A stretch of 64,000 nucleotides of DNA, from positions 62,001-126,000 of the forward strand of contig JAJFGL010000056.1 of the NCBI GenBank assembly GCA_021776135.1, read 5' to 3'. This document shows positions 8,728-40,934 of this stretch, one piece after another. How positions within the stretch are numbered: position 1 is the stretch's first letter; every line of letters begins with the position of its first letter. The DNA is from Kiloniellaceae bacterium. GTDB taxonomy: Bacteria > Pseudomonadota > Alphaproteobacteria > Kiloniellales > J153. Below the pieces are notes generated by a model, which made no database searches, had not been told where the DNA came from, and saw only the letters and a list, made by a program, of their open reading frames with translations. Position numbers and translations under genes: made by a program.

Positions 8728-8762
8728 GCGGGCGTGGCGGAACTGGTAGACGCAACGGACTT
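8728..8762 (+). pseudogene. 5' half of disrupted host tRNA-Leu(UAA)
   Basis: The sequence starts GCGGGCGTGGCGGA and runs through the D-arm and the 5' strand of the anticodon stem (ACGGA) to CTT of the anticodon loop. Its acceptor strand pairs perfectly with CGCCCGC at 40924-40930. The anticodon stem pairs with TCCGT at 40887-40891. Beyond 8767 the sequence turns into AT-rich element DNA, so no complete tRNA can be made here. Joined to the 40883-40934 half it forms a normal 87-nt tRNA with encoded CCA. Confidence 0.93.
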
Positions 8763-8767
8763 AAAAT
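8757..8767 (+). repeat. attL core (11-bp direct repeat)
   Basis: GGACTTAAAAT spans the last three bases of the anticodon stem, the seven-base loop and the first base of the opposite stem. The identical 11 bases recur at 40877-40887; flanking bases differ (C/T here, A/C there). Around the uninterrupted target the stem sequences ACGGA and TCCGT form the inverted core sites expected for anticodon-loop integrases. Confidence 0.9.
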
Positions 8768-8857
8768 TACAAGATTTTTATATTCTGTAAAATATAAAAT
8801 ATAATAATTACAAGCAGATAAGACATTATTTGACCCCAAAAATAGCCTATGATATCC

Positions 8858-8887
8858 TTACACAGTCGTTACACACTTACACAGTTT
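8858..8887 (+). repeat. Left arm-type integrase binding repeats (three TTACAC-like copies)
   Basis: Three direct repeats occur within 30 bases: TTACACAGT (8858), TTACACAC (8869) and TTACACAGTTT (8877). The same three-repeat pattern in the same orientation and with nearly the same spacing lies inside the right end at 40800-40825. Paired arms of this kind are typical of lambda-type tyrosine integrases. Confidence 0.6.
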
Positions 8888-8915
8888 CGACGAGATTTTT
8901 ACCGAGGATATCGCC

Positions 8916-10103
8916 ATGGCGCACCACACATTGATGGGAGGAAAACTCCACCTCTACAAACGCGACAACAGCGGCTTCTGGCAGTGCTCGACCTATCTAT
9001 CGGGCAAGAACCGCCGCCTCAGCACCAAGGAAGAAAGCCTCTCCCAGGCCAAGGATTTTGCCGAGGACTGGTATCTCGAACTGCGCGGTAAACACCGGCG
9101 CGGCGAGATCAAGAACGAGAAGACTTTCCGCGAGGCAGCGACCCAATTCACCCGCGAATACGAGATCATCACCGAGGGCCAACGCAACCCGATCTATGTC
9201 GAAGGCCACAGCACGAGACTCCGCATCCACCTACTGCCGTTCTTCGGCGATATGGGCTTGTCGGAGATCACACCCGGCCAGGTCCAGGAGTACCGCATCC
9301 ACCGGCGGGAAAAGGCGATGGACCAACACGGCAAGCCGCCCGCCCGCAATACAATGCATCAGGAGATCGTCACGCTCCGGCAGACGCTAAAGACGGCCCT
9401 GAGGCATGGCTGGCTGCAATATCTGCCCGACCTGTCCGAGCCCTATAAGAGCTCCGGCAAAATCTCACACCGCGCATGGTTTTCGCCGGAGGAATACAAG
9501 CAGCTTTACGAAGCAACCCGAAAGCGCGCGCAGAAACCCATGCGCAAGCGCTACAAATGGGAGAGCGAACAACTTCACGACTTCGTGCTGTTCATGGCCA
9601 ACACTGGCCTTCGGCCCGATGAGGCATGGCGGCTCGAATATCGCGACGTGAAGATCGTCGATGACGATGCAACCGATGAAACGATTCTGGTAATCGAGGT
9701 GCGCGGTAAGCGCGGCGTCGGTTACTGCAAAAGCACAGCCGGGGCCGTTCGGCCGTTCGAAAGACTGAAAAAACGGAACAAGCCGGAGGGTCGAGACGAT
9801 CCGGAACCGACCGATCCGATCTTTCCGAAAACGCACCGGCAGCTTTTCAATACGATCCTGGACGAGGAAAACCTTAAATTCGACCGCGAAGGCAACAGGC
9901 GCACCGCCTATAGCCTGCGGCACACCTACATATGCCTGCGTCTCATGGAAGGCGCTGACATCTATCAAATCGCAAAAAATTGTCGCACCAGCGTCGAAAT
10001 GATTGAGAAATATTACGCCTCCCATATCAGTACTACGATCGATGCCGCCGCTATTAATGTTCGGCGCCCAAGACCAAATAAAAATAAGGACAGAAATGAA
10101 TAA
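8916..10103 (+). CDS. int: Tyrosine-recombinase integrase of the element
   Basis: The 395-residue protein has a short N-terminal arm-binding region, a SAM-like core-binding domain (about 65-170, including EITPGQVQEYRIHRR) and a C-terminal catalytic domain. Catalytic residues visible are the first Arg in NTGLRPDEAWRL, the His-Arg region in YSLRHTYICLRL, and the Tyr in EMIEKYYASH. It would excise and insert the element at the tRNA-Leu(UAA) anticodon loop. ATG follows GAGG by ten bases. It lies 149 bases inside attL, reads away from the junction and is downstream of the host tRNA promoter, so that promoter may drive it after integration. The element-borne tRNA follows 67 bases later. Confidence 0.92.
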   Translation: MAHHTLMGGKLHLYKRDNSGFWQCSTYLSGKNRRLSTKEESLSQAKDFAEDWYLELRGKHRRGEIKNEKTFREAATQFTREYEIITEGQRNPIYVEGHSTRLRIHLLPFFGDMGLSEITPGQVQEYRIHRREKAMDQHGKPPARNTMHQEIVTLRQTLKTALRHGWLQYLPDLSEPYKSSGKISHRAWFSPEEYKQLYEATRKRAQKPMRKRYKWESEQLHDFVLFMANTGLRPDEAWRLEYRDVKIVDDDATDETILVIEVRGKRGVGYCKSTAGAVRPFERLKKRNKPEGRDDPEPTDPIFPKTHRQLFNTILDEENLKFDREGNRRTAYSLRHTYICLRLMEGADIYQIAKNCRTSVEMIEKYYASHISTTIDAAAINVRRPRPNKNKDRNE

Positions 10104-10129
10104 GAACTCTACTGTCTCGTAAATTCTTC

Positions 10130-10158
10130 TTGGCCGTTTTCTGTTAGGCGGCTATAGA
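10130..10158 (+). promoter_or_regulatory. Candidate promoter of the element-borne tRNA-Leu
   Basis: TTGGCC (10130-10135) and TATAGA (10153-10158) are separated by exactly 17 bases and place a transcription start a few bases before the tRNA at 10171. The boxes match the sigma-70-type consensus moderately well. This would let the replacement tRNA be expressed independently of the integrase. Confidence 0.5.
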
Positions 10159-10170
10159 TGAAAGGGTCAC

Positions 10171-10502
10171 GCGGGCGTGGCGGAATCGGTAGACGCAACG
10201 GACTTGGGTCAAAACTTGAGTGCTCTTCCGGGAAACCGGAGATGTAGAACTGCTCAAATTCGGGGAAACCTGTGAAATGGCAATCCCGAGCCAAGCCTTC
10301 GACGGCACGTGCCGGAGAAGGAAGGTGTAGAGACTAGACGGGCAGCGCCTAAGCCCCGGCCCATGGCCGGGGTACGGTGAAGGGATAGTCCAGACCACAA
10401 AGGCACTCCCCTGCTAAGGGAGTGCGGCGGCGAAAGCCGTAGATGGTACGAAAATCCGTTGGGCGTAAGCCCGTGGGGGTTCGAGTCCCTCCGCCCGCAC
10501 CA
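10171..10502 (+). tRNA. Intact tRNA-Leu(UAA) carried by the element, interrupted by a group I intron
   Basis: Exon 1 (10171-10205) and exon 2 (10451-10502) join to an 87-nt tRNA-Leu with acceptor GCGGGCG/CGCCCGC, anticodon loop CUUAAAA, a long variable arm and an encoded CCA. It would read UUA and UUG codons. Compared with the split host gene, it differs only in the D-loop (ATC in place of ACT after GGCGGA... position) and in the variable-arm loop (GTAA in place of GAAA). It is therefore a separate allele and not a product of this insertion. It lies directly behind the integrase and is co-oriented with it. Because the host gene is broken, this copy probably supplies tRNA-Leu(UAA), unless another copy exists elsewhere. 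Confidence 0.93.
10206..10450 (+). ncRNA. Group I intron (IC3-like) in tRNA-Leu(UAA)
   Basis: The 245-nt intron has group I landmarks. P1 forms between exon ACUU plus intron GGGU and the internal ACUUGAGU, with a U.G pair at the 5' splice site. P2 is UCCGG-GAAA-CCGGA. The P and Q elements are near 10258 (UUCGGGGAAACC) and 10281 (AAUCCCGAGCC). R (AGACUAGACGGG, 10331) and S (AUAGUCC, 10385) form P7. P8 is a CCCCGGC hairpin and P9 is GCACUCCC/GGGAGUGC. The last base is G, as required. Insertion after U34 matches the cyanobacterial and plastid tRNA-Leu(UAA) introns. There is no homing-endonuclease ORF. Confidence 0.92.
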
Positions 10503-10705
10503 AACTTTCCTGCCAGTGATCACCGCGTCCTAATCTCACACCCCGATCTCCTGACACGGCCCCTGGCCAGGCCCGGCCTTTGGAACGCACAAGCACCGGC
10601 GCGGCCGAGTGAGTGTTCCGTCTTTCATCATCGTGCATCACTCTGTTGCAACTGAAAGCCGAATCGTGTAGCGTGAACAAAAAGGGAACACAAGGGCCTT
10701 CCGCC

Positions 10706-10939: not shown

Positions 10940-10957
10940 GTGAAGCAGGGGGACGAC

Positions 10958-12817
10958 ATGCAAAAGCAACAGGTAAATGGCACAAAAAGAAAGATGCCAT
11001 CCAAAACCAGGGCGCTCGATGCTCTTTACGAAAAAGCGCTTCCAGCAAGTCGTACAGGCCATCTGTACAACGCGTTTCCATATCCGACCAAGATTTCCCC
11101 TGAAGCAATTGCCTTGTTCATCGCTGCCCACACCAAGCCGGGTGACACAGTGTTCGACGGCTTTGCCGGAAGCGGTACCACAGGGCTTGCCGCATTGCTG
11201 TGCGAAGACCCGCCCGAAGAGCTCCGCGAAGAAGCGAGGCGATTGGGCCTCAATGTGAATTGGGGTGCACGAAACGCGGTTCTGTATGAGCTCGGTGCGC
11301 TCGGCGCGTTTGTCGGTCAGACCCTGACCAACCCTCCCGTGCCCAAAACCTTTCGCAAGGCGGCTGAAGAGATTTTAGTCGCTTCCGAAGAAGCTGATGG
11401 CTGGATGTATCGTGCCACGGACCCAGAAGGGGGCGACGGTGCAATCCGCTATATGATCTGGTCCGACATACTCTGCTGTCCTGCCTGCGGCAGCGAAGCC
11501 ACGCTATGGGATGCCTGCGTCTCGCTTGGTCCGGCGCATATCGCATCGCGTTTCACCTGTCCTTCTTGTGCTCACGAAGCACCGCTGGATGCTGCCAAGC
11601 GCCTGACAGAAACCGTTTTGGATGACGTTACTAATGAAGACAGAGAACTCAGGAAGCGCTGTCCGGTCCGCATGTACGGGGTCAGCGGAAAAAAGACCTG
11701 GTCGCGTCCGGCCACCGCAGACGATGCGGAGCTGCTGAAACGCATCGCCGCTGAGCCGATCCCGGCCTCGGTTCCGCGCGTGGCCATTCCCTGGGGCGAT
11801 CTATACCGGCGCGGCTACCATCAAGGCGTCACCCATCTGCACCACTTTTACACCCGCCGAAATCTGATTGTTTTCGCACGGCTTTGGGAACGCGCCGGTC
11901 AATATGACAGCCACCTTCGGGACGCATTGCGTTTCTGGCTGCTGAGCTATAACGCCTCTCACGCTACGATCATGACGCGCGTGGTCGCCAAATCCGCTCA
12001 GAAGGATCTGGTTGTGACAAGCGCCCAGCCGGGTGTGCTTTATATCAGCGGCCTTCCCGTCGAGAAGAACCTCTTTGCCGGATTACGGCGCAAGCTCTCG
12101 ACCATTACCAAGGCCTTCGCTGTCATTCACGGACGCAAGGGCAGGGTCGAGGTGCAACAGAAATCAAGCTGCCACGTCGATCTGCCTGATCGCAGTATTG
12201 ATTATGTGTTCACCGATCCGCCGTTCGGCGGCAACATCCCATATGCAGAAATAAGCTTCCTCAATGAAGCCTGGCTTGGGCATTATACAGACCGCAATGA
12301 CGAGATTATCGTCAGTAACAGCCAGGACAAAACGGTCACTGACTACCAGGAGCTTCTAAAGACAGCGCTGAGTGAGGTGCACAGAATTCTGAAACGCGAT
12401 GGTAAGGCAACTCTCGTGTTCCATTCCGCGTCCGCAAATATATGGAACGCACTTCAGACTGCTTACACGGGCGCAGGTCTTGCTGTCGAATGTGCGGGTG
12501 TTCTCGACAAAACACAGGGCAGCTTCAAGCAGGTAACGACGACAGGGGCCGTCCGAGGCGATCCCGTATTGCTCCTTGGCAAGCGCCCAATGGAGGCGGA
12601 GCAATCTATCGAATGTGTCTGGACGGTTGCCCAGCAACTTCGCCAGGAAGCCACATTGACGCTCGACCCCACAGAACAGACAGCACAAAGACTCTATTCG
12701 CGCCTGATCAGCCACTTCCTCGCCAATCATCAGCAGGTACCGCTCAATGCCGACGCCTTTTACAGGTGGCACAACGAGCAGTATTTGGCGGAGGCAGCCG
12801 ATGGCGCAAGGCTCTGA
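10958..12817 (+). CDS. DNA methyltransferase with internal zinc ribbon
   Basis: This 619-residue protein starts best at an ATG after AGGGGG; an in-frame GTG at 10940 is possible. It has SAM motif I (FDGFAGSGTT) near residue 67 and motif IV DPPFGG near residue 420, so it is an amino-methyltransferase (N6-adenine or N4-cytosine). Between them, two CxxC pairs (CCPACG near 173 and CPSCAH near 205) form a zinc ribbon. It overlaps the next methyltransferase gene by 17 bases. As the first of three methyltransferases it probably sets the self mark of a restriction-like system. Target sequence is unknown. Confidence 0.8.
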   Translation: MQKQQVNGTKRKMPSKTRALDALYEKALPASRTGHLYNAFPYPTKISPEAIALFIAAHTKPGDTVFDGFAGSGTTGLAALLCEDPPEELREEARRLGLNVNWGARNAVLYELGALGAFVGQTLTNPPVPKTFRKAAEEILVASEEADGWMYRATDPEGGDGAIRYMIWSDILCCPACGSEATLWDACVSLGPAHIASRFTCPSCAHEAPLDAAKRLTETVLDDVTNEDRELRKRCPVRMYGVSGKKTWSRPATADDAELLKRIAAEPIPASVPRVAIPWGDLYRRGYHQGVTHLHHFYTRRNLIVFARLWERAGQYDSHLRDALRFWLLSYNASHATIMTRVVAKSAQKDLVVTSAQPGVLYISGLPVEKNLFAGLRRKLSTITKAFAVIHGRKGRVEVQQKSSCHVDLPDRSIDYVFTDPPFGGNIPYAEISFLNEAWLGHYTDRNDEIIVSNSQDKTVTDYQELLKTALSEVHRILKRDGKATLVFHSASANIWNALQTAYTGAGLAVECAGVLDKTQGSFKQVTTTGAVRGDPVLLLGKRPMEAEQSIECVWTVAQQLRQEATLTLDPTEQTAQRLYSRLISHFLANHQQVPLNADAFYRWHNEQYLAEAADGARL

Positions 12818-14930
12818 AGCCAGAGATGCCATGCGAGAAGAGGCACGCGCCTATGAAGCAGCGTTGCCCGCGGACCAGCGCAAACAGCTAGGACAGTTCT
12901 TTACCGGCGTTCGCCTCGGCAAGCTTCTCGCCCACCTGTCGCTTCAGTCTGATACGCGCACCGTTCTTGACCCGATGGCAGGTCATGGCGACCTTCTTGA
13001 CGCAACCTGGGAGGCGGCAGGTGAATGTGGCATCACGCTTGACCGGCTTGACGGCATTGAGATCGACATAGCCACAGCTTCCATGTGCCGGGACCGGCTT
13101 TCAGCGATTCGCGCAGAGCATGGAACGTCTGACCAGAAAATCGTGACGGGAAGCGCCTTTGATCCCGAATCGCTTAAGGAATCACCAGAACGCGGCTACG
13201 ATCTGGTCATCACCAATCCGCCATTTGTGCGCTATCAGACGCGCAATGGAAATGGTACCCAGGCCGAAGCAACGCGCTCCGGGCTCTTGGACATCGCAGG
13301 CAGCCAGCTCTCCGGCGATAAAAGCGACATCTGGAAAACTTTGATCAAGGGCTATTCCGGCCTCGCGGACCTTTCTGTCCCGTCATGGCTCCTGGCGGGC
13401 CTTATGGTGCGATCCGGAGGACGGCTTGCGCTTGTTGTGCCCGCTACCTGGCGCTCGCGTGATTATGCCGACGTGATCCGTTACCTTCTCCTGCGTTGCT
13501 TTTCGCTGGAAGCGATTGTCGAGGACACCCAGCCCGGCTGGTTTTCCGATGCACTTGTCCGAACCCATCTCATTGTTGCCAGACGCTTGCCGCCGGAAGA
13601 GGCCCTTAAGCCGCTTTGCGCCAGAGATCGCTGGCCACAGGCGCGATGGCTTCAGGTTGCACCGGACGCAGCGAATGATCAGTCCCTGGTTGGCGCGGCA
13701 TTTGAAGGTCGGCACCCTGAGGCAGCTTTCGCTACGTGGTTCCGCGCCATGAATGCGACAGCGCCGCGTGGCATCAAAGTTCGGGACTTCGACCTCCGCC
13801 ATGAATGGGCTACGCTGCAATCCCGCATTGGCAGGCGGCGTTGGTATCGGAAGCTTGAATGCGGCGGCGAAGAGCTGCCGCTATTTGCTGACCAGAGCGG
13901 TCCCGCGCCTGTTACGATTCCCGATACACTGCGGCATATGCTGCCGCCGCATGCGGAACCTGTTTCACTTGTCTCTCTTGAAGAGGCCGGTATCCGGGTA
14001 GGCCAGGGCCTGCGCACCGGATGCAACCAGTTTTTTTATGTGACCGTATGCAGCTCTTCAGCAGGAGGTACGGAACGCGTCAAGACATCTCCCGCTTTCG
14101 GAGGCCGCGAATTCACCATTCCTTCCGGCGCGCTGCGGTCTGTGCTCCGTCGCCAGTCAGAGATGAGTTATCTCGAAGGCAACATGATGCCGCCAGGGTG
14201 TGTTCTCGACCTGCGCGGCTGGGTGCTACCCGAAGACGCCAAACTCGTGGCAGACGCACAAGACGCCTACACAGCACGGGGCGAGACACCGCCCAGGATC
14301 ATGCCTGATGAACTGGCCGCATTTGTGCGGCACGCGGCGGCGCACGTTCTGACCCAGTCAGACAAGCTCATTCCCAGTCTGACGGCGGTACGCACCAATG
14401 TGCGGGTACCTCGCAACGGCAAGGTCACGCCACGCTTCTGGTACATGCTGCCGGACTTCGCACCCCGTCATCTGCCCGCCGCTTTTGTGGCACGCATCAA
14501 TCACGGCGTGCCCTGGGTTGAGGCCAACTGCGACCCATCCCTGCTGATTGATGCTAATTTCTCGACAATCTGGGCACGGGAGAGGGGCTGGACGCGATAT
14601 GCCCTTAAGGCCCTTCTGAATAGTGTCTGGTGCCGCGCTTTCATGGAGGCTCTTGGCACGCCGCTCGGCGGCGGCGCGCTCAAGCTTGAAGCCACCCATC
14701 TGCGGCAGATGCTTGTACCCCGCCTTACAGATGGAGCGAAGGCTGCACTTGATGCCGCCGGGGAAAACCTAAGCAGAAACTCTGCTGCCATCCAGACGCA
14801 AATCGATGCCGTCGTTTTACAGGCCATTCTCCCGGAGAAGATGGCAGCAAGCGGTTTGCCCGAACTCGCCGCAGATATGGCGGCACGGGCGGATATCATG
14901 CGCGGTTTGCGTCAGAGGGTAGCCTCATGA
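12801..14930 (+). CDS. N6-adenine DNA methyltransferase (Eco57I/class I type)
   Basis: The 709-residue product begins soon after GGAGG and has LGQFFT near residue 33, typical of large N6-adenine methyltransferases. SAM motif I is LDPMAGHGDLL near residue 57 and catalytic motif IV is NPPFVRYQ near 138. The long C-terminal half may be a target-recognition domain: NQFFYVT-type and LNSVWCRAFMEA-type phrases recur in this class. It overlaps both neighbours, including an ATGA overlap with the third methyltransferase, which implies one operon. No nuclease motif is obvious within it. Confidence 0.82.
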   Translation: MAQGSEARDAMREEARAYEAALPADQRKQLGQFFTGVRLGKLLAHLSLQSDTRTVLDPMAGHGDLLDATWEAAGECGITLDRLDGIEIDIATASMCRDRLSAIRAEHGTSDQKIVTGSAFDPESLKESPERGYDLVITNPPFVRYQTRNGNGTQAEATRSGLLDIAGSQLSGDKSDIWKTLIKGYSGLADLSVPSWLLAGLMVRSGGRLALVVPATWRSRDYADVIRYLLLRCFSLEAIVEDTQPGWFSDALVRTHLIVARRLPPEEALKPLCARDRWPQARWLQVAPDAANDQSLVGAAFEGRHPEAAFATWFRAMNATAPRGIKVRDFDLRHEWATLQSRIGRRRWYRKLECGGEELPLFADQSGPAPVTIPDTLRHMLPPHAEPVSLVSLEEAGIRVGQGLRTGCNQFFYVTVCSSSAGGTERVKTSPAFGGREFTIPSGALRSVLRRQSEMSYLEGNMMPPGCVLDLRGWVLPEDAKLVADAQDAYTARGETPPRIMPDELAAFVRHAAAHVLTQSDKLIPSLTAVRTNVRVPRNGKVTPRFWYMLPDFAPRHLPAAFVARINHGVPWVEANCDPSLLIDANFSTIWARERGWTRYALKALLNSVWCRAFMEALGTPLGGGALKLEATHLRQMLVPRLTDGAKAALDAAGENLSRNSAAIQTQIDAVVLQAILPEKMAASGLPELAADMAARADIMRGLRQRVAS

Positions 14931-17900
14931 GCGTTGATCTCGCGCAGGCCAGAGAAGCCATCAGGAGATGTCGGGAATTTCGCGATTCCGGCAAAGTCGA
15001 AGCCGTCCTGCGCGGTGAGTTCCAGTCGCGGTTGCGCCTGATCTTTCCGGCTCCCGACGATGAATCCTGGATCAATCATTACAGCGAAGGCACAGAGGCT
15101 CATACCAAGGTGGGACAGGCCGGTGGCGGGATTGCCAGCCGGTTCATCGATAATCTCATCGGCTCGACCACAATCGAATACGAGGCGGACTTGCGCGTTC
15201 CAGCAAAGCGCGATGAAGGCTTTGCGCAGGTACACGATCACGCAGCCGGTCTGATCCGGGGCGGTGTCCCGTTATCCCAGGTGCGCGGCGTTCTTGCCGA
15301 TACGGTGGACTGGTATGCCTATGACGTAGAGCTTGCGCCGGGTGTCGATCCGGCAGGCTGCACTGTCGATGACATCACTCTGGTTCAGGTTGACACGCTG
15401 GAGCTGATCGCAGATGACGAGCCGTCAGCCGTTCGTCTTATCGCGTTTGTCCGCAAACACCTTGCGCGCCAGCAGTCCCGCCCGCTCAGGGCCGGTTTTC
15501 TCACGCTTGATCTTGGGCTGGAGAGCGGCCCTTACAAACGAAGTGCCGATCCTCTGCGCGAACTCGTTGACGAAGGACGAGAGGCTGATCCGTCCATTGA
15601 GCTGGCAACAGAATTGTGGTCGCGGTTCGTCGATTACCTGGAAGGCGAAGCCGGAGCTTTTCGCTCAGCAGCTTATGTCGATGAAGCTTATCTCTGCATT
15701 CTTGCCCGCCTGCTGAGCGCCAACGTTCTCGCTGGCCAAGCGGCGTCCAGCGATGATGCAGAGCTTAAGGCGATACTGGACGGGACGTATTTTCGCGACC
15801 ATTACCAACTCGGCAACATGGTCGAGCAGGATTATTTCGGCTGGCTCACCAGTCCTGCCCATATCGACGGGCTGGTGCCCATCGCCAGAGAAATCCAGCG
15901 TGACCTCTACGCTTATGATTTTGGCTGGAAATCTGAGGAAGATCTCTTTGGCCGCCTCATGGCGCAGCTTGCGCGCCGCAGCCAGCGCAAGTTGCTGGGA
16001 CAGGAATGGACCCCCGGCTGGCTGGGCCGCCACCTCGCGGAGCGCTGCCTGGATAATCTTCCCGAAGGGGAGAAGCCGCGCATCGTCGATATGTGCTGCG
16101 GCTCAGGCTCGATCCTGGCCGAGGTTCTGAAAGCTGCCAGGGACCGCTTCGGTCTTTCCGAGATCGAAACGCTGCATGACGTGGCAACAGGTTTTGACAT
16201 TGACCCGCTTGCGGTCAGTCTGTCCAAGACGACCTGGGTTGTCACCCTGGCCGATGAAATCAAGGCGGCTACAAGCCCGATTGTCATTCCGGTTTATCAC
16301 GCCGACTCCCTCTTTGCGGTCACTCCGGTTACGCCCGTCCTTCCGTTCTTCGGTGAGAGCGATACAATTGACGTGTCTTTGGACGGGACAACGATCAAAC
16401 TGCCCGATGCCGTGATTCAGCCTGAATACCGCGAGCTGTTCGACCGGATTATCGACTGGGCTTATGACGAGGCGATCGATGCCCAGGCAAGGGGCAACGC
16501 CGCCCACCTGAACGAAGAGGCCACGGGGCAGTTCCTGGACGGCGCGGCAGGCGCTTCCGGTATCACTCTTCCCGCAGAACTCATAGAGGTGTTGACGCCC
16601 GCCGTCTTTGCGCTGGTGCACCGCATGGCTGAACTAGCGGTTGCGGGGCGCAATGGTATCTGGGCGTTCATCCTGCGCAACACCTACCGGCCAGGACTTC
16701 TCAGCGGACAATTCAACGGCCTCGTATCCAATCCGCCCTGGCTTGCCATGAGTCGTCTTGCGGATAATCCCTATCGGAACGTCCTTACAAACCGGGCGAA
16801 GCTCTATGGCGTCCGTCCTACGGGTCAGTCTTTTTTGCACCTGGAACTCGGCACAACCCATCTTCTCCATGCCATTGATCGTTATCTTTCTCCTGATGCG
16901 GCAGTCGCCTGTCTGGTGCCGGGTACGGTGTTCAACGGCCATCATCACGAACCCTTCCGCCAGCGTGAGTTCCTGACCAGCAAACGCCCTGTGTCGCTTG
17001 AGATCAGTGAAGTGTGGCAGGTCCAGCCGGGAACATTCAAGTATCCCGGTGCCGCTATCATCGGCCATAAGCGCACCGCGTCCGGCGGACTCAAGACGAA
17101 AGCGATCAGCGGATTTCTCGTTCGGGAGTCCGGCGTTGAGGCCGCAGACTTTTCGACCCGTGCCATCGGAACGAAGCGCACAGCCTGGGTGCTTGAAAAA
17201 GAGGGGCTGCCAATTGCCGCTTCCGCTGCTACCACTTTGCCTCAGCAGGGGGCCGATCTTATGCCGCGAACAGCGGTTTGCATCGAGGTTCTTAATGCAA
17301 ACGGCGCGGAATACAGGGTGGATACGCCGTCGCGCGATTCAGCATGGGGCTTTACGGTCAAGGCGGCAAAGGAACTCAAGGAAGAGCGTTTTCCCGGCCA
17401 TGTCGCACCCCGTTTTATTCATCGCATGGCACAATCCGAAAATCTCCTTCCTTTCGTTCTTGGTGAACATTGCGCGCCTATCGCTATTCCCGCTTTACGG
17501 GATAGCCATGGCGTCTGGCAGACTTACGATGAGGCTGACATTCGCCGCATGGGGTTTACGGAGACGGCAAGGCGGTTTCGCGCCATCAATGGCCGGCTGA
17601 AACAAATCGGGCAGGGTAAGTCCCTTCAGGAACGTATAGACGAACGCGGAAAACTGACAAAACAGGTTCTCGGCGATACCGGCCATCTCATCGTCGCCGG
17701 TGCCGGCGGGAAACATATTTGCGCGGCCTGTATTCCGCTTGCCGGTGGGAGTGATCTGGCCGTAGATCAGACTCTTTACTGGCAGGTTATTCAGAGCGAA
17801 GAGGAAGCCTGGTTTCGCGTCGGCATGCTGAACAGTCATGCCATGACCGAAGCAATTACGCCCTTTAACCCCAAGGGCGCATTCGGCGAGCGCCACATTC

Positions 17901-18187
17901 ATGCTCTGCCTTACCGTCTTATGCCCGCCTACGATCCGTCTAACGAGGACCACGAGCGAATTGCCATACTTGCACAGCAGATGGCAGGGCAGGCGCGGGC
18001 TATGGTTGTCGCGGATGCCTATCTGGGCGATCCGAACAGGGCTCTGACCGCTCGTCGCAGCAGACTTCGCGAAGCTCTTCGGGGAACCGCCGAACTTCAG
18101 GAGCTGGAACAGCTCTGCGCTGCTGCGCTTGGTACGACGGTTTTTGAAGAAGAAGCAGGCGATACCGCAAGTGGTGGCCCGGCATGA
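14927..18187 (+). CDS. Large DNA methyltransferase/restriction-like protein
   Basis: The protein is 1086 residues. About 370 residues precede a methyltransferase core with motif I VDMCCGSGSI near residue 388 and a motif IV variant SNPPWLAMSR near 601. The N-terminal region could hold a nuclease or regulatory domain, but I see no confident PD-(D/E)XK motif in it. The C-terminal part resembles target-recognition regions of type IIG-like enzymes. NPPW in place of NPPY/F is common in this class. ATGA overlaps at both ends tie it to the second methyltransferase and the small nuclease, so the three are probably made together. Confidence 0.78.
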   Translation: MSVDLAQAREAIRRCREFRDSGKVEAVLRGEFQSRLRLIFPAPDDESWINHYSEGTEAHTKVGQAGGGIASRFIDNLIGSTTIEYEADLRVPAKRDEGFAQVHDHAAGLIRGGVPLSQVRGVLADTVDWYAYDVELAPGVDPAGCTVDDITLVQVDTLELIADDEPSAVRLIAFVRKHLARQQSRPLRAGFLTLDLGLESGPYKRSADPLRELVDEGREADPSIELATELWSRFVDYLEGEAGAFRSAAYVDEAYLCILARLLSANVLAGQAASSDDAELKAILDGTYFRDHYQLGNMVEQDYFGWLTSPAHIDGLVPIAREIQRDLYAYDFGWKSEEDLFGRLMAQLARRSQRKLLGQEWTPGWLGRHLAERCLDNLPEGEKPRIVDMCCGSGSILAEVLKAARDRFGLSEIETLHDVATGFDIDPLAVSLSKTTWVVTLADEIKAATSPIVIPVYHADSLFAVTPVTPVLPFFGESDTIDVSLDGTTIKLPDAVIQPEYRELFDRIIDWAYDEAIDAQARGNAAHLNEEATGQFLDGAAGASGITLPAELIEVLTPAVFALVHRMAELAVAGRNGIWAFILRNTYRPGLLSGQFNGLVSNPPWLAMSRLADNPYRNVLTNRAKLYGVRPTGQSFLHLELGTTHLLHAIDRYLSPDAAVACLVPGTVFNGHHHEPFRQREFLTSKRPVSLEISEVWQVQPGTFKYPGAAIIGHKRTASGGLKTKAISGFLVRESGVEAADFSTRAIGTKRTAWVLEKEGLPIAASAATTLPQQGADLMPRTAVCIEVLNANGAEYRVDTPSRDSAWGFTVKAAKELKEERFPGHVAPRFIHRMAQSENLLPFVLGEHCAPIAIPALRDSHGVWQTYDEADIRRMGFTETARRFRAINGRLKQIGQGKSLQERIDERGKLTKQVLGDTGHLIVAGAGGKHICAACIPLAGGSDLAVDQTLYWQVIQSEEEAWFRVGMLNSHAMTEAITPFNPKGAFGERHIHALPYRLMPAYDPSNEDHERIAILAQQMAGQARAMVVADAYLGDPNRALTARRSRLREALRGTAELQELEQLCAAALGTTVFEEEAGDTASGGPA

Positions 18188-18645
18188 TCGATCTTGAGAA
18201 AGCAGGAAAGATTCTCGAACGCGCCCGGGAGGCAGCGATTGACTATTACGACCTCACCGGTAAACCGCTCGGAATCACGGGTGAAATTGGCGAATATATG
18301 ACGGCCAGGCTTCTTGGACTCGAACTCGCCGATGCCAGGGCGGCCGGCTATGATGCGACAGATAAGAAGGGCCGAAAGATTCAGATCAAGGCCCGCAGCA
18401 TTCCAAGTAAAAAGAAACTTTCCGGCCAGATCGGCTCTATCAGTCTCGATCATGAGTGGGATTGCGTCATGTTTATCCTACTTGATGAGCGGTTTGAGCC
18501 GCAGGCTATCTTTGAGGCTGATCGCGGTGCGCTGGAAGCTGCACTCGCGAAACCAGGAAGCAAGGCGCGCAACGAACGGGGTGCTCTTTCAATCAGCAAA
18601 TTCAGGAGTGTTGGAATGCAGATTTGGAGCGCTGATAGCGCATAG
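18184..18645 (+). CDS. Small PD-(D/E)XK-like nuclease subunit
   Basis: In this 153-residue protein GEIGEYMTARLLGL is followed by GYDATDKKGRKIQIKAR. That is a Glu, an Asp and a Q-x-K arranged as in Mrr/type II restriction nuclease cores. It shares an ATGA overlap with the large methyltransferase. The simplest reading is that it is the DNA-cutting subunit matched to the methyltransferases. It could instead be a DNA-binding member of the same fold without catalysis. The downstream ATPase gene starts 47 bases later. Confidence 0.65.
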   Translation: MIDLEKAGKILERAREAAIDYYDLTGKPLGITGEIGEYMTARLLGLELADARAAGYDATDKKGRKIQIKARSIPSKKKLSGQIGSISLDHEWDCVMFILLDERFEPQAIFEADRGALEAALAKPGSKARNERGALSISKFRSVGMQIWSADSA

Positions 18646-26922: not shown

Positions 26923-26988
26923 CGCCGGCGTCGCGCGCCGCTTTCCGTTAGGCATGCGCCCGCCAATCGTTCATAGCTTGTCAGGAAT

Positions 26989-33237: not shown

Positions 33238-33239
33238 CC

Positions 33240-33589: not shown

Positions 33590-33692
33590 TTTCCTCTCTC
33601 CTTGCTGCACAACTTCCACCATGGTGACCAAAGCATTTGAGGGGCGGATTGACTCCCAACGCCCGTGAACCCACGCTCACATCTACGACCCA

Positions 33693-34448: not shown

Positions 34449-34507
34449 CGTGATTTTGAAACCGTTCCGAATCGGTTTAGTAGGCGGCCAACCGCCCAGT
34501 CCGCTCG

Positions 34508-36037
34508 CTACCCCATCGCGTCGTACTTCCCTTCAAACACCGGGTCCGTGTGATAGACGACCCGTTCCAAAACCATCGGCGGCTGACCCGCCCAGATCAC
34601 CAGTTGCCGCCGCTGCGGATCGTCGCGCCCGAAAAACCGGCTGGCTTCCTCCGGCGTGAGCAGATCGTAAAGTTCGATCCCCCAGGACTCGCCGGATGCA
34701 CCCTTCATCCGTTGCTCATGCGTCGTTTCCGATTCCCGCCGCATGCGGATCGCCGTCTTGCCGAGCCGCTTGGATATGAAATCCAGCGTGCTCATATCGT
34801 TGTTGCCGAAAAACTGAATCACCCCGGCATTGCCGAGGAAAGTTTCCCATCCCTCGCGGTAATCGCGTTTCAATTGCGTGAGGTCTTGCAGGATCGGCCA
34901 GAGCTTCACCCCGAAGCCCGCGATCTGTCCCGCCGCCGCTTCGATCTGCCGCATGTGGCCGAGCGCCGCAAATTCGTCGAGGCACATAAGAACGGGGACC
35001 GGCGGAACGGTTTGCTCCCGCTCCATGGCTTCAAGGGCCAGGTTCACGAACACCCGGAACCACCGACTGCATGTGGCGAGCCGCGTCGCCGGCAGACACA
35101 GATAAACCGTCATGCCTTCCGGCGCGGTTTTCATATCCGTGAGATCGAAATCGTGACCCGTCAAAACTGATTGCAGATTCGGGAAGTCCAGAAACTTCGT
35201 ATGACGCCGCGCGGTCGAAAGCACCGATCCGCGCTCAACGTCCGGTTTGTCGAAAAAATCCGACGCGGCTCCCTCGATGGCCGCCGTTGTTCCTTCATCG
35301 TGCTCCGCGTGTACCTCGACGTTATGCAACATCTCGACACGGAGACCCTGCATGCCATGCGCTTCCCTTTCACCGTGCGCGATGTGCGCGCCGTTCATCA
35401 GAAGCTTGCGCACCGTCACCAGATTGCGCTGGCCCTCGTAACCGGGATAGGTGGCGACATGAAGAACGATCCCTTCGATGAAGTTGCGCGCGCTGTCATC
35501 CCAATGCGGATCGCTGCCCCCGGCGATCACCAGCGCGTCGGCAATGAGTCCCGCATCCTCGACAAGCGTTGCGCTATCGGGTTTTAGGATCGACAAGGGA
35601 TTGTACGAAGCCTTGTAAGGCGCGACCCGTGGTTCGGCCCGGTCGAACGGGTCAAGCACGTAAACGCGCTGTCCCAATCCTTCCGCGCGCCGCCGCGCGG
35701 TAATGTTCGCGAGCTCGGCCTTCGGGTCGATGGCGAGCACGCTCCCCTCATAAAAAATCAAATTCGGCACGATGGCCGAAACGCCCTTGCCCGCGCGCGA
35801 TCCGGCGACGGTCATGATATGACGGTTGTCCGCGACACCGACCAACTGGCCGTCGAGCGCGCCAAGTAGCATTTTGCGGCCCGGATTGGCCGGATCATAA
35901 GCGAACGTCCCGGACGACGCGATAAGGTCCGGCGGCATCCAGGCCGCAAGCGGCGTGCGGTGATCATGCAGCTTGCGCGACCGCACCCCGCGCGGAAGAT
36001 CGTCGAGTACCTTTTCCTTTTCTCCGGCCAACGCCAA
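34508..36037 (-). CDS. VirD4/TraG-family type IV coupling ATPase without visible membrane anchor
   Basis: The 509-residue protein has Walker A GSRAGKGVS (about 79-87), Walker B VLMCLDEFAALG near residue 350 and the family motifs DPKAEL and SWGIELYDLLTPEEA. It would pump the relaxase-DNA complex into a secretion channel. Canonical VirD4 has two N-terminal membrane helices; here the N-terminus is hydrophilic. The start is TTG; a second TTG two codons later is better spaced from AGGAG. It is eight bases downstream of the lipoprotein gene. No VirB genes accompany it, so it must dock on a foreign channel. Confidence 0.85.
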   Translation of the reverse strand: MALAGEKEKVLDDLPRGVRSRKLHDHRTPLAAWMPPDLIASSGTFAYDPANPGRKMLLGALDGQLVGVADNRHIMTVAGSRAGKGVSAIVPNLIFYEGSVLAIDPKAELANITARRRAEGLGQRVYVLDPFDRAEPRVAPYKASYNPLSILKPDSATLVEDAGLIADALVIAGGSDPHWDDSARNFIEGIVLHVATYPGYEGQRNLVTVRKLLMNGAHIAHGEREAHGMQGLRVEMLHNVEVHAEHDEGTTAAIEGAASDFFDKPDVERGSVLSTARRHTKFLDFPNLQSVLTGHDFDLTDMKTAPEGMTVYLCLPATRLATCSRWFRVFVNLALEAMEREQTVPPVPVLMCLDEFAALGHMRQIEAAAGQIAGFGVKLWPILQDLTQLKRDYREGWETFLGNAGVIQFFGNNDMSTLDFISKRLGKTAIRMRRESETTHEQRMKGASGESWGIELYDLLTPEEASRFFGRDDPQRRQLVIWAGQPPMVLERVVYHTDPVFEGKYDAMG

Positions 36038-36044
36038 GCTCCTG

Positions 36045-37052: not shown

Positions 37053-37659
37053 CTTCCCCTCCTCTTTTTCCGGCCGCCGCGCCTCTTGACGCAGAGTCCT
37101 TTTCCGTACCGGCGCGGTCGGGTTGTCTCTCGATGCCGCGCGCTAGGCACTGTCCAGGGTTAGATTTCTCGTCCTGGCAATCGCCCAGAGCCACAGCCAA
37201 TGGCAGCGCCGGCAATTCTGACGCCATTGTGAACTCGATGCTAAACCCAGTCGCGTGAGGATGGGGAGTCATTTTCGCGTGTTGAGAGCAGCCAGCAGCA
37301 ATTTTTGCGGCTCCAACCTTTGATAGGTAGCGATTATTTTTTACACCAGAGCAGGGTGTTAGAGAATGTTAAACTACCCTTAAGGATATTATGTAAAACT
37401 AAAGGTTGTGTGGAGGGCGCACTTTTGGGTTTGCAGCGCAAACCCGCGCCCAGGCTCAACGGGGGAGGCTCCCCCAAGCCGCGAGGCTTCCCCCTCATCC
37501 GGCCCTCATGGGAAATGGAGGGCCGGAGCAATCGCGACGTTCCCGACAAAGCGTCGCGCTTGCAGAAACCGGCTCCCGCCGGTGATTAAGGGCTGCCCGC
37601 CCTTAAAAATCCCGGCCGGAGACAGCGGCTCCGAACCCGCTAGCGTGGGGGTGTGGGCA
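37053..37659. other. Divergent control and oriT region with multiple hairpins
   Basis: The gap between divergent lipoprotein and relaxase genes has no coding sequence I can support. It holds the oriT core and further inverted repeats: GGGGGAG-G-CTCCCCC (37461) and CCGGCCCTC/GAGGGCCGG (37499/37518), plus AAGGGC/GCCCTT near 37585. The AT-rich section around 37330-37400 probably contains promoters. Confidence 0.6.
37412..37445 (-). other. oriT: Origin of transfer core (oriT, RSF1010/MobQ type)
   Basis: Read on the minus strand, a perfect 8-bp inverted repeat (GGGTTTGC, loop GCT, GCAAACCC) is followed directly by AAAAGTGCGCCCTCC. RSF1010-group and related oriTs have the same order: an inverted repeat then TAAGTGCGCCCT, with the nick in the GCGCCC part. 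The site lies about 215 bases before the relaxase start, the usual place. The nicked strand would be the minus strand. Confidence 0.85.
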
Positions 37660-39180
37660 ATGGCGATATATTCGTGCAACCTGAAAAGCATCGGCCGCAC
37701 AACGCACACGGCAGGCACGGCCGGGGCGCATATTCGCTACATTAGCCGCCCGGACGCGCAGCCGACGATCCTCGCCGAGCATATGCCCTACGATCCGAGC
37801 GACGCGCGCAACTGGACCGACCGCGCCGAACGCGCTTCCCGGAAGAATGCCCGCGTGCTGGATAAAATCAGGATCGCCCTGCCCCGCGAACTGAGCGACG
37901 TGGAGCGCGCCGCCCTGGTCGAGGAATACATGGCCGATCTCGCAGGCGGGCGGCGCGTGCCGTGGTACGCCGCCATTCATCAGACCGGTAAGGATACCCT
38001 CAACCCCCACGTCCATATCGCCGTTCATGACCGCGATATGGACACCGGCAAGCGCGTATTGCGCTTGTCGGACAGCGCGCGTGACCGCGCCAAGGACGGC
38101 CTTCCCGGCCCCAAGGCGGTGGATTGGATCAGAGAGCGATGGGAAGAAACATGCAATCGCGCCTTGGAGCAGGCCGGTCACGACCTACGCATCGACCGTC
38201 GCACCCTGGAAGCGCAGGGCCTCGACCGGGAACCGACAATCCATATCGGTCCCCGCGCAAGCCACATCGACGGCAATGTCAAACGCCCGGAATCCAAGCG
38301 CCGGGTCAACGGCTGTGGCCGTGTGATCGATTACCCTGTCATCGACAAAGGAAAGACCCGGCGGGAATTCAATGCACAGATCGTCGATCTGAATTTAGAG
38401 CGCGCCGCCCGTTCCGAGAACCCTGCCACTGCGGCTTGGGCGGCCTTCGAGAAAGACCAGATCGAAAGAGACCGGTCGCTCGAAGACCGGCTTGCCGCCG
38501 AGAACCGGCAACGCACGGCCCAACTGCGTAACACGGCCAATATCTACAACGCGCGCATTGCGCGTCTCCGCGCCGAAAATCGACTTAAGCAACGACGCGC
38601 ACAGACCCTGGTACACGAACGCTTCCAGCCGGCCCGCGAAAACCAGCAAGATCGCCAACGCCGCGAGCATAAGGCTCTCAAGAGCAAACACGGGCGGCTC
38701 TATATGCGGCTTCTCACAGCCATCGATATTACCGGAACCTCCCGTCGCCGGCAGGAAGCGGCGCGCAGATCGCTTAGCGCAGCGCACAGGACCGAGAGAC
38801 GGGAATTTGCAGATAGATACCGCCAGGCCCAATCTGCGGCGTCGGCGGCTGTCAAATCCCACTATAGCGACCGGTTGACAGAAGTCCGTGAAAAGAGGTC
38901 TGTCCACCTCGCGCAGCTTCAGGAGCGCCATGATGAGGTGGAACGTTTCGCGGATGCGGAACGACAACGTCGCGAAACGGATCGCGAGCACGCCCGCCAA
39001 ATTACCGAACGGAAAATTCAGGATTGGGTGAAGGGCCGCAAACAGGCTTCCCGTTCGGAAACGCAGGGCAAACAAGAGGACAGCGCCTTAGCCCGTGCCT
39101 TCAACAAAGCGACCAAAAAAGAACAAAAAAGACCCCTACAAAGGCCCGGTGGACGGGGGCGGACCTACCGTCCGTCCTAA
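37660..39180 (+). CDS. mobA: MobQ-type relaxase (MobA/MobL family)
   Basis: The 506-residue protein starts MAIYSCNLKSIGR. The HUH metal triad lies in NPHVHIAVHD (H117, H119, H123), with a probable catalytic Tyr at 27 (RYISRP). The N-terminal 250 residues are the relaxase; the rest is a long charged coiled coil ending SALARAFNKATKK. It nicks oriT, stays bound to the 5' end and leads the strand into the recipient. The ATG was chosen because upstream codons are low-complexity and overlap the oriT hairpins. The adjacent oriT matches the family expected for this relaxase. Confidence 0.88.
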   Translation: MAIYSCNLKSIGRTTHTAGTAGAHIRYISRPDAQPTILAEHMPYDPSDARNWTDRAERASRKNARVLDKIRIALPRELSDVERAALVEEYMADLAGGRRVPWYAAIHQTGKDTLNPHVHIAVHDRDMDTGKRVLRLSDSARDRAKDGLPGPKAVDWIRERWEETCNRALEQAGHDLRIDRRTLEAQGLDREPTIHIGPRASHIDGNVKRPESKRRVNGCGRVIDYPVIDKGKTRREFNAQIVDLNLERAARSENPATAAWAAFEKDQIERDRSLEDRLAAENRQRTAQLRNTANIYNARIARLRAENRLKQRRAQTLVHERFQPARENQQDRQRREHKALKSKHGRLYMRLLTAIDITGTSRRRQEAARRSLSAAHRTERREFADRYRQAQSAASAAVKSHYSDRLTEVREKRSVHLAQLQERHDEVERFADAERQRRETDREHARQITERKIQDWVKGRKQASRSETQGKQEDSALARAFNKATKKEQKRPLQRPGGRGRTYRPS

Positions 39181-39716
39181 TGCCGTCTCGTACGGGCCAG
39201 CTTCGGGCCATCCTTGACGCGGCAAATTTCATCCACGATGACACCACCCGCCGTGAGAACGAATTTGGGATAGCAACTCACGGACCATTCCTCGCAGAAC
39301 TGCAACGCGCCCTGGACCATCGCCCAGGCAAGGCCCCGGACTTTGCGGCTGCGCTCTTCGCGCGGCGCGATCGGATCGAACATCGTCTCCGCGTAATCGA
39401 GGAAAATCTCCGAGGGGTATTCGACGGAATCCATCGGTCCATAGACACTCTTCCCGCAGACGCGGTGCGCTTCCTTATCTATAACAAAATCGGATGCCCC
39501 ATGAAGGAACTCATAGTAGAGTCCCGGATCGTATTCGTCGCAAAATCTCAGGCCAGCGATCAGGAGCGCCGTGGCTATGCCGAAGACAAGCGGATCGGAT
39601 AGATCATCATCGAGAGCAACAAAGGCAAAATCACGGAAGGTTTCCGGCGATATGTCTTCCGCCGTTTCGATAACACGGCTAAATGCGAACTCCGCAATAT
39701 TGATGCTTTCGGCCAT
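39177..39716 (-). CDS. Unrecognised 179-residue acidic protein
   Basis: The protein is acidic and mostly helical (AEFAFSRVIETAEDISPE, IATALLIAGLRFCDEYD). No signal peptide or enzyme motif is visible. It is convergent with the relaxase, overlapping its stop by four bases, and divergent from the next coiled-coil gene. It may be a small regulatory or entry-exclusion-type protein; nothing in the sequence decides this. Confidence 0.6.
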   Translation of the reverse strand: MAESINIAEFAFSRVIETAEDISPETFRDFAFVALDDDLSDPLVFGIATALLIAGLRFCDEYDPGLYYEFLHGASDFVIDKEAHRVCGKSVYGPMDSVEYPSEIFLDYAETMFDPIAPREERSRKVRGLAWAMVQGALQFCEEWSVSCYPKFVLTAGGVIVDEICRVKDGPKLARTRRH

Positions 39717-39792
39717 TTATTCTTCTTTTCTTCTATTCCCAATCTTCTCATAGCCGTCTCCGGCTTGTCAAAATTCACTCCGGTGCCCTGCC

Positions 39793-40338
39793 ATGATAAG
39801 CCCCGAAAAGCCCGCAAGGCCCGCCTTCGATAAGGCGTCCGATTGGATCGCCCATCAAGAAACCCAACTCACCGAAGAGCAGCGGCGGCGTTACGAAGAG
39901 CAGAAAAAGGCTCAGAACCAAAACCGTGAGGAAGAGCGCAAGAAACTGGACGCGCTGGTGGCTCAGCATGACGAAATCAGAAAGAACCGGCGTATCGCGG
40001 CAAAGCTGCATCTGGCGATGGGAGCGGCGCGGGGCAACCCGGCGCTTCAGGAGAAGGTTCGGCAGATACAGAATCAGAAGGAAGTCACTGAACGGCTGGG
40101 CGAACAAATCGAGCAAGAGCGCATTGCGTTGTTGCGCAATTGCGAACGAGAGCGGCTGACCAAGCAAGAATTTCGGCGGGTCGCGGGGACCGGCGAAACA
40201 AAATCCGAGGACGACGCGCTTGCACGGGCCTTCGATAAAGCCAATGCGCACGACGCGGAGCGGGAACATACCCAGAGCCAGGAACGAGGCCGCCAACTCT
40301 CACGCACGTTCAACGACGCGGCCCGGTCCAAGGATTAG
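39793..40338 (+). CDS. Coiled-coil mobilization accessory protein
   Basis: This 181-residue, very charged helical protein has repeated heptads (RRYEEQKKAQNQNREEERKK). Its phrase EDDALARAFDKAN closely echoes EDSALARAFNKAT at the end of the relaxase. The shared tail suggests duplication from the relaxase gene or a common recognition tag, for instance for the coupling protein. It is the last gene before the right end of the element. Confidence 0.65.
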   Translation: MISPEKPARPAFDKASDWIAHQETQLTEEQRRRYEEQKKAQNQNREEERKKLDALVAQHDEIRKNRRIAAKLHLAMGAARGNPALQEKVRQIQNQKEVTERLGEQIEQERIALLRNCERERLTKQEFRRVAGTGETKSEDDALARAFDKANAHDAEREHTQSQERGRQLSRTFNDAARSKD

Positions 40339-40876
40339 GCTGCGCAACGCGAAAGCCGCCGCCGGCGTTGTACCGGACGGCGACTCCGGGCCTATAGCCC
40401 GATTTCGGGCAGTGTCAGGAAAAGCGTGAGCTTGTCTCGCGTGCGATGTTTTCCAACGATGCAAGCGCCGGGGGAACGCGCGGGCGCGATCTGTCTTAGC
40501 GCCTTCGCGGACGCGCCGGTTTCGACGCGTCCCAGCCCGTATCTTGCGGGACTCTGGTTCACCACCAAAGCAAGCCCTTTGCCGTGCTTCCAGGAGTCAC
40601 GTCGCCCCTGTTTTGTGAGGGCGACGGTGGCTCCATACGAAGCAGGCAAAGATAAAAGAAGGGGTGCAGGCACGATTGCCGCAGCCTTCCCGACAGCGCA
40701 AAACGCCCAAGAAGCGCCTATATGGTAGCAAGTCTCTGAATTTTCAGTATTTTTCGAGCTAAGCGTTTGAATTTATGGCGGAATCGACAAGGCCAAAAAT
40801 TACACAGTTTCTTACATATTTACAGGCTATTAAATAATTTATTGAATTATTTCAGATACTTATTAATACAATAAAA
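40339..40876. other. Right-end non-coding region of the element
   Basis: The first 400 bases are GC-rich and have overlapping open frames on both strands (for example a GTG-start 93-codon frame at 40392-40673 minus) with no ribosome site or known domain. The last 130 bases are AT-rich and hold the right arm-type repeats. No terminator or RNA gene is recognised. Confidence 0.45.
40800..40825 (+). repeat. Right arm-type integrase binding repeats
   Basis: TTACACAGTTT (40800), TTACAT (40812) and TTACAG (40820) have steps of 12 and 8 bases. The left-end triplet has steps of 11 and 8 bases, and the orientation is the same. The set lies 52 bases from the attR core. Confidence 0.6.
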
Positions 40877-40887
40877 GGACTTAAAAT
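40877..40887 (+). repeat. attR core (11-bp direct repeat)
   Basis: GGACTTAAAAT is identical to the left core. It is preceded by AT-rich element DNA (AATACAATAAAA) and followed by the 3' anticodon stem of tRNA-Leu. Crossing over between the two cores would restore a complete host tRNA gene. Confidence 0.9.
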
Positions 40888-40934
40888 CCGTTGGGCGAAA
40901 GCCCGTGGGGGTTCGAGTCCCTCCGCCCGCACCA
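40883..40934 (+). pseudogene. 3' half of disrupted host tRNA-Leu(UAA)
   Basis: The sequence runs from the AAAA of the anticodon loop through stem TCCGT, a long variable arm (GGGCGAAAGCCC), the T-arm with GGTTCGAGTCC, acceptor CGCCCGC and an encoded ACCA. The corresponding 5' half is 32 kb away at 8728. No promoter or replacement 5' half precedes it, so it cannot yield a tRNA. Confidence 0.93.

Follow-up and report, generated by a model that had tools for sequence, protein, structure and literature searches.

An integrative element that splits a host tRNA-Leu(UAA) gene and probably replaces it with an intron-bearing copy of its own

How does a bacterium read UUA codons once a mobile element has cut its tRNA-Leu(UAA) gene in two? 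The question is raised by a 64,000-nt stretch (hereafter the window) of contig JAJFGL010000056.1, which belongs to the 3.96-Mb draft genome of a Kiloniellaceae bacterium (70 contigs, 97.9% complete). In this window the two halves of a tRNA-Leu(UAA) gene lie at opposite ends of a 32.1-kb element that encodes a tyrosine integrase. We propose, with a probability of roughly 0.85, that this integrative element destroys the host gene and supplies in trans a replacement of its own, which is shielded from the integrase by a group I intron.

The native gene is broken in its anticodon loop. An 11-bp core, GGACTTAAAAT, occurs at both junctions and nowhere else in the window, compared with 0.01 occurrences expected by chance, and the integrase gene lies just inside the left end; both features had been described correctly in a first-pass annotation of this DNA (Table 1). 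When the two flanks were joined in a script, a regular 87-nt tRNA-Leu(UAA) was obtained and was accepted by ARAGORN. ARAGORN run without introns reported no tRNA in the whole window, neither at 8728 nor at 40877, and neither junction therefore rebuilds a functional gene, as that annotation had also stated. The window thus shows a tyrosine integrase, a short common core inside a host tRNA gene and junctions without a functional tRNA. The arrangement of a conventional tRNA-restoring attP, in which a tRNA end is carried and the target is rebuilt, was found at neither junction.

An intact and intronless tRNA-Leu(UAA) gene with the same left flank as the window was found in two of three congeners (G001 and G002), as anticipated for relatives with an empty site. 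The 3.8 kb to the left of the intact gene in G002 match the window at 83%, and in G001 the left flank of the window lies about 1.1 kb from the gene. In the stretches of G001 and G002 that were read, sequence from the right flank, past 40939 of the window, did not turn up next to the intact gene, so the empty site rests on the left flank together with the intact gene. Judged from sequence comparison, the split, the cores at both ends and the intact gene in congeners establish that the gene was destroyed by insertion. The third congener, G003, contains two tRNA-Leu(UAA) 5′ halves 32 kb apart with a duplicated upstream flank (G003:C26:279 and 32461; L066 and L067); both run into non-tRNA sequence, and no complete UAA gene was seen. 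Among 58 genomes of the same genus, family and order, a close integrase (E ≤ 1e-20) was found only in the genome of the window.

A complete tRNA-Leu(UAA) gene follows the integrase gene after a gap of 67 nt. The first-pass annotation had recognized this gene and had counted two differences from the host gene; the gene is interrupted by a 245-nt intron, and after splicing three positions differ between the two tRNAs. The intron was aligned to Rfam model RF00028 over all 253 model positions with a score of 49.5 bits (gathering score 50; E 5e-11), and the introns in relatives L216–L219 and L224 score above the cut-off. In an alignment of 29 family genes, 35 of the 84 predicted pairs of tRNA and intron were changed on both sides in at least one sequence, as befits a conserved paired group I core with compensatory changes. 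Introns in the 38 complete family genes measure 204–281 nt, less than is usual for introns that encode a homing endonuclease, and by pattern match 33 of these 38 genes have a completely paired acceptor stem. As the intron interrupts the core, the DNA of the element's tRNA gene lacks it, and in none of the 29 aligned introns does the intron start rebuild GACTTAAAA. The promoter previously suggested for this tRNA can be read by eye as TTGGCC-17-TATAGA, but a strict sigma-70 scan did not report it; a looser promoter pattern fits 18 of 42 element tRNAs, including that of the window.

The host assembly was searched for another tRNA-Leu(UAA) gene. In addition to the intron-bearing tRNA, 39 tRNAs were found with Rfam and decoded. 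Genes for tRNA-Leu with anticodons UAG, CAA, GAG and CAG are present once each, the UAA gene is present on the element only, and no second tRNA-Leu(UAA) gene was found in the assembly. The one suggestive match among those listed in a looser 12-mer search, at G000:C34:108572, lies by its sequence in a cytochrome-like coding region and was rejected as a tRNA.

The following mechanism would account for these features. The tyrosine integrase would recombine attP with a core that serves as attB and lies in the anticodon loop of tRNA-Leu(UAA), and since attP has only this core in common with its target, insertion destroys the tRNA gene. The tRNA-Leu(UAA) of the element would then take over UUA decoding. 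From its regular cloverleaf, its status as the only copy found and its conservation in the family we infer that it does so, and by analogy with phage Fionnbharth, described below, this is very likely. The intron would remove the core from the DNA, and RNA splicing would still yield a normal tRNA. The integrase would then be unable to recombine the element's own tRNA with attL, attR or attP, and the last remaining copy would be safe from incoming sister elements. The missing core can be read in the DNA; splicing of the intron and protection from the integrase are what we infer from it. A cell that lost the element by any route except precise excision would be expected to die, and a built-in addiction to the element is plausible.

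A species-genome collection was scanned with an alignment of five integrases, and 437 loci were confirmed. The best 80 of these were kept and, together with the window, form a family set of 81 loci, in which the window integrase is 64–81% identical to the others in the best segment. The family occurs in alpha- and gammaproteobacteria, acidobacteria, planctomycetes and other groups. In 67 of the 81 loci (42 UAA and 25 CAA) the 5′ half of a tRNA-Leu gene, cut at the anticodon loop, was found upstream of the integrase, at 118–247 nt from the integrase match in the 65 relatives measured; the 5′-half pattern fits 65 of the 66 relatives counted, and L166, in which it is cut by the contig start, was judged by eye. 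Seven loci have the core without a tRNA half (L119, L121, L122, L130, L146, L154 and L160), L167 begins at a contig end, and no tRNA half is visible in L125 and L153. An intact tRNA lies beside the integrase in the remaining four (Met in L118, Arg in L139 and L142, Phe in L163).

In a tree of 90 rows, made by a quick method with 33 of 86 inner branches left open and a midpoint root used for drawing only, the integrases beside intact Met and Phe tRNAs and the plasmid-borne integrases lie near the base, and those beside Arg tRNAs lie inside. UAA and CAA targets alternate across the tree, and the kind of replacement tracks the target. Three further observations concern individual integrase loci. 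In the planctomycete locus L153 (5700–7340) the integrase is followed downstream by a tRNA-Leu(UAG) and preceded upstream by an inverted anticodon loop of the UAG type, which may represent a third target. L119 and L121 have near-identical integrase regions in two differently named metagenome-assembled genomes (MAGs) and perhaps represent a circular form or another site. An Asticcacaulis plasmid relative (L058, 3740–3850) has the 3′ part of a tRNA with a CAT anticodon just upstream of the integrase.

The first-pass annotation had suggested a search for intron-containing tRNA-Leu(UAA) genes beside homologous integrases, although it had not proposed a role for an intron. Such genes were found. 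An intron-bearing tRNA-Leu(UAA) was identified for 39 of the 42 UAA insertions, including the window, and lay just downstream of the integrase in 37 of the 42. The intron gene is cut by a contig end in four cases (L106, L107, L124 and L165) and its start is masked by Ns in L131; in L165 the 5′ exon and 7 nt of the intron can be read and agree with the complete sister L167. The gene lies further on and in the opposite direction in L162 and on another contig in L177, and the contig of L157 ends shortly past the integrase. The core-only locus L130 has the only readable UAA replacement without an intron and carries a changed stem instead (CACTTAAAATG). All matches to the 5′ half with at most one mismatch were read in isolates of Nitrobacter vulgaris (9 matches) and Pelagibacterium luteolum (11 matches). 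Among them, no UAA genes other than the split gene and the intron copy were found in either isolate, and the remaining matches belong to Leu CAA, Leu UAG or no tRNA. An attR-like 3′ half with part of the 5′ half was found in Edaphobacter lichenicola M8US30, 33 kb away on the same contig, and in Granulicella sp. L46 on another contig. As a separate observation, the attL of L177, L162, L181, L094 and L140 runs into a 3′ tRNA-like end without a long variable arm; the acceptor stem is unpaired where it was compared by eye, and these ends are perhaps decayed restoring attP sites that lie beside a separate intron tRNA.

The element tRNA starts with GCGGGCG in 31 of 42 cases, including many acidobacterial ones, and acidobacterial host halves often start with GCCCGGA or GCCGGGA. 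Because this start is shared despite the differing host halves, the replacement seems, from these sequences, to move together with the element instead of being picked up from each host.

As a base rate, an intron-bearing tRNA-Leu(UAA) was found in at least 18 of 385 alphaproteobacterial genomes (BLAST, E ≤ 1e-20; 19 matches, one of them in a tRNA-Arg). The isotype of some intron tRNAs rests on alignment because ARAGORN misplaces their intron. A family integrase lies beside the gene in 7 of these 18 genomes, that of the window included. Another locus (G199:C5:29571-44787; L100 and L257) is a 15.2-kb remnant with a split tRNA-Leu(UAA), an attR with the 3′ half and an intron tRNA 207 nt inside attL. 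No family integrase was found in the parts of this remnant that were read (all but 38001–42499), and it looks like a decayed element retained by its tRNA.

In elements that target tRNA-Leu(CAA), the core is more often disrupted through base changes in the anticodon stem or loop, and in one case through an intron placed 1 nt earlier. In eight of the 25 CAA elements, an adjacent intronless tRNA-Leu(CAA) has a core altered relative to attL, reading GGCT in L108, L109 and L113, CACT in L110 and L168, GTCT in L133, and GATT in L158 and L164; the adjacent copy of L123 is unaltered. In L134 (7457–7777) the tRNA-Leu(CAA) gene is interrupted by a group I intron that separates U33 from C34, 1 nt before the usual UAA site. 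L134 and L164 are sisters (support 100), and the core is broken by an intron in one and by a base change in the other. A Granulicella element, L175, targets CAA and has an intron-bearing tRNA-Leu(UAA), yet no CAA copy, downstream of the integrase.

No replacement lies near the integrase in 14 of the 25 CAA elements (tree label CAA_none). We dropped the idea that acidobacterial CAA elements in general lack a replacement, since a copy was found further in the genome for 9 of the 14. A GTCTCAAAAAC copy is present in the genomes of seven of them, about 0.2–0.3 kb from attR for L149, L171, L173, L178 and L174 (in L174 both the copy and attR are on a different contig from attL), 19 kb from attL on the same contig for L169, and on another contig for L159. 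Copies with an unaltered core lie away from the integrase in L145, 4.9 kb before attR, and in L155, 30 kb from attL (no attR was seen). In L135 a complete CAA gene, which may be a rebuilt target, lies 25.8 kb further along. The contigs of L141, L143, L151 and L152 end before the far end of the element, and no replacement was found in the parts of L141 and L143 that were read. In the acidobacterial CAA elements at G458:C46:44187, G459:C64:37601, G457:C12:53520 and G451:C2:132612, the recoded tRNA-Leu(CAA) lies at the end opposite the integrase, about 0.2–0.3 kb from attR. Most CAA elements are accompanied by a replacement, which may stand at one end or the other.

Five of the loci with a core and no tRNA half also have CAA copies, with GTCT in L146, L154 and L160 and an unaltered core in L119 and L121. 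When these five are included, the att core is altered in 18 of the 24 CAA copies without an intron. Stem pairing survives in several of the recodings, for example by a change from A31-U39 to U31-A39. The four letters before CAA were GACT in about 118, GATT in 29 and other letters in 3 of 150 listed alphaproteobacterial background matches counted by hand, compared with 5 GACT, 3 GATT and 16 other among the 24 element copies; the background is alphaproteobacterial, whereas most element copies are acidobacterial and several are identical. Further group I intron matches were seen in some of these genomes, three (L219, L224 and L226) in the acidobacterial MAG that holds L135 and a single one in each of the genomes of L119, L169 and L175.

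That the core was broken repeatedly and in different ways argues for shielding. We consider it about an even bet that an integrase family across several phyla destroys tRNA-Leu genes and supplies integrase-immune replacements, by a self-splicing ribozyme for UAA and mostly by recoding for CAA. Several observations weigh against shielding. Shielding is not universal, as six of the 24 CAA copies retain an unaltered core (L119, L121, L123, L135, L145 and L155). Of the seven recoded copies that lie away from the integrase, five share one sequence and are therefore not independent. Ten alphaproteobacterial genomes with an intron-bearing tRNA-Leu(UAA) have no family integrase in the 11–16 kb read around the gene, and thus the intron can persist without the element. 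These integrase-less genes (L088, L090, L091, L095, L096, L098, L099, L102, L103 and L104) are either native or orphaned.

The position of the intron bears on a different explanation, in which the replacement is real and the intron is a passenger, inherited from the intron-bearing tRNA-Leu(UAA) of an ancestor and without a role against the integrase. Group I introns of tRNA-Leu(UAA) in cyanobacteria and plastids occupy the same place in the anticodon loop, so intron position alone is no proof of selection. Distances between introns and between integrases are correlated (Mantel r 0.35, with 0 of 2000 permutations as high, for 38 genes), as would be the case for a co-inherited cassette, and the unshielded CAA copies fit a passenger as well. 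However, an intron is present in every readable UAA replacement, over several phyla, except that of L130, in which the stem is changed; in CAA elements the core is disrupted by other means, and the intron of L134 stands 1 nt earlier whereas its sister L164 has a base change. A passenger intron is therefore possible, in our view, but distinctly less probable than an intron that shields the replacement.

A second alternative is that the internal tRNA is ordinary cargo and that the host lives by another tRNA-Leu(UAA) gene in the unassembled part of its genome. The draft is incomplete and in 70 contigs, and some expected tRNAs, such as Ile-GAU, are absent from it, so the absence of a second UAA gene is likely rather than proven. 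For two UAA insertions, L166 and L180, no replacement was found when 6 kb downstream of the integrase were read, and their MAGs hold an intact UAA gene elsewhere; like the missing Ile-GAU, this speaks against replacement by the element. Nevertheless, a second UAA copy was found neither in this assembly nor in N. vulgaris or P. luteolum, and ordinary cargo would not be expected to accompany a family integrase in 39 of 42 UAA insertions. We therefore consider this explanation improbable and retain replacement by the element's own tRNA. We know of no trans-splicing of tRNA halves in bacteria. A functional split gene is extremely improbable, as the 3′ half is 32 kb away and a complete copy is on the element, even though sequence is kept in both halves and split tRNAs are described from Archaea (PMC3293823).

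Table 1. Features of the element and its attachment sites in the window (positions are those of the 64,000-nt stretch)
Feature	Position	Strand	Remarks
Host tRNA-Leu(UAA), 5′ half	8728..8767	+	attL core at its end
attL core GGACTTAAAAT	8757..8767	+	
Tyrosine integrase (P0001)	8916..10103	+	395 aa
Promoter-like hexamers TTGGCC - 17 nt - TATAGA	10130..10158	+	By eye; 12 nt 5′ of the tRNA
Replacement tRNA-Leu(UAA) gene	10171..10502	+	CCA encoded; ARAGORN with introns
Group I intron, 245 nt	10206..10450	+	After the first anticodon base, inside the attachment core
Three methylase / type IIG restriction-modification-like open reading frames (cargo)	10940..18187	+	Pfam (third just under cut-off), PADLOC
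DUF6998 / methyl-directed restriction enzyme-like (cargo)	18184..18645	+	Pfam, PADLOC
AAA_13 ATPase, PADLOC candidate PDC-S06 (cargo)	18693..20996	+	Pfam, PADLOC
Serine resolvase	26347..26955	-	Pfam Resolvase, E 9e-38
Type IV coupling protein (T4SS-DNA_transf, TraG-D_C)	34508..36037	-	Pfam
MobA/MobL-type relaxase, near right end	37408..39180	+	Pfam
attR core GGACTTAAAAT	40877..40887	+	
Host tRNA-Leu(UAA), 3′ half	40877..40934	+	

The integrase is a diverged tyrosine recombinase. Pfam families Phage_int_SAM_3 and SAM_5 were matched barely above their cut-offs, Phage_integrase scored 22.5 bits against a cut-off of 27.1, and a match to the integrase family PHROG 1 was obtained with an E-value of 6e-33. 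Besides the integrase, 20 open reading frames inside the element, a subset of those present, were scanned with Pfam. An integrase, a relaxase and a coupling protein lie between direct repeats, the composition of an integrative mobilizable element, and the coupling protein was the only mating-pair (type IV secretion system) gene seen among the 20. The element is thus integrative and probably mobilizable, with defence genes. A phage origin was not supported, as no phage structural family was found among the scanned reading frames and a relaxase and coupling protein were present instead. Only 2 of 50,697 phage records matched the integrase, at 24–32% identity, and a scan of viral contigs gave a single weak relative at 27% identity.

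Replacement in trans was supported by all three genome checks, namely the search for a second gene, the congeners and the integrase homologues; as a strategy it is not new, contrary to what the first-pass annotation had implied. In the tRNA-dependent lysogeny of actinobacteriophages, a destroyed tRNA is replaced in trans (Guerrero-Bustamante and Hatfull, mBio 2024, PMC10865867), and the same article describes experimental proof of the strategy in mycobacteriophages: integration plasmids of phage Fionnbharth without the phage tRNA gave no transformants. As in the window, these phages use a tyrosine integrase and a short core (about 10 bp in their case) in a host tRNA gene that is not rebuilt, and carry a tRNA of the same isotype; phage Gaia targets tRNA-Leu(CAA) and has its tRNA downstream of the integrase (PMC10865867). 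Unlike them, the element has a relaxase and a coupling protein, the hosts are different, and the replacements have an intron or a changed anticodon stem; in the accessible text of PMC10865867 no intron is reported in a replacement tRNA, and the word occurs only in a cited title. Prophages of Sinorhizobium meliloti, also an alphaproteobacterium, inactivate a tRNA-Leu and replace it with their own more distant copy, but their target is tRNA-Leu(UAG), and the word intron is absent from the article text as available (PMC11476347). Other S. meliloti prophages at tRNA-Leu(UAA) are described as rebuilding their target (PMC12429752).

A guarding intron has been suggested before in other settings. A Caldiarchaeum locus has a 5′ tRNA-Thr fragment, about 1.8 kb with a recombinase and a complete tRNA-Thr that gained an intron, and the suggestion made for it is that this intron offers protection from additional elements (Sugahara et al. 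2012, PMC3293823). That case differs in its archaeal intron at position 24/25, in concerning one locus and in a model in which attP itself bears the intron (PMC3293823). Randau and Soell, as cited in PMC4390854, proposed that the disruption of tRNA genes is retained as a defence against elements that integrate; their proposal concerns hosts, whereas here the guard would serve the element itself. Self-splicing introns of this type are known in bacterial tRNA genes (PMC3984707), whereas here the intron accompanies an integrase that targets the same loop; the words integrase and genomic island do not occur in the accessible text of that article. Islander genomic islands share the tyrosine integrase and tRNA target but are defined by target restoration (PMC4383910), which is missing in the window element. 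Among the matches listed from open-licence PubMed Central articles, we found no account of a replacement tRNA that contains an intron and lies next to an integrase, nor of this integrase family, its spread across phyla or the recoded CAA copies. As far as we found, neither an intron nor recoding that could hide the replacement from the integrase has been described in print.

The element extends the strategy of replacing what is broken to an element that is not phage-like and to a large integrase family in several phyla. As a tRNA finder run without introns misses these replacement genes, such islands look like killers of an essential tRNA. If the proposed reading is true, the group I intron is a target-immunity device, a possible job for group I introns in tRNA genes, and the traffic of these elements would account for a large part of the patchy distribution of tRNA-Leu(UAA) introns among proteobacteria and acidobacteria, orphan introns that remain after integrase decay among them.

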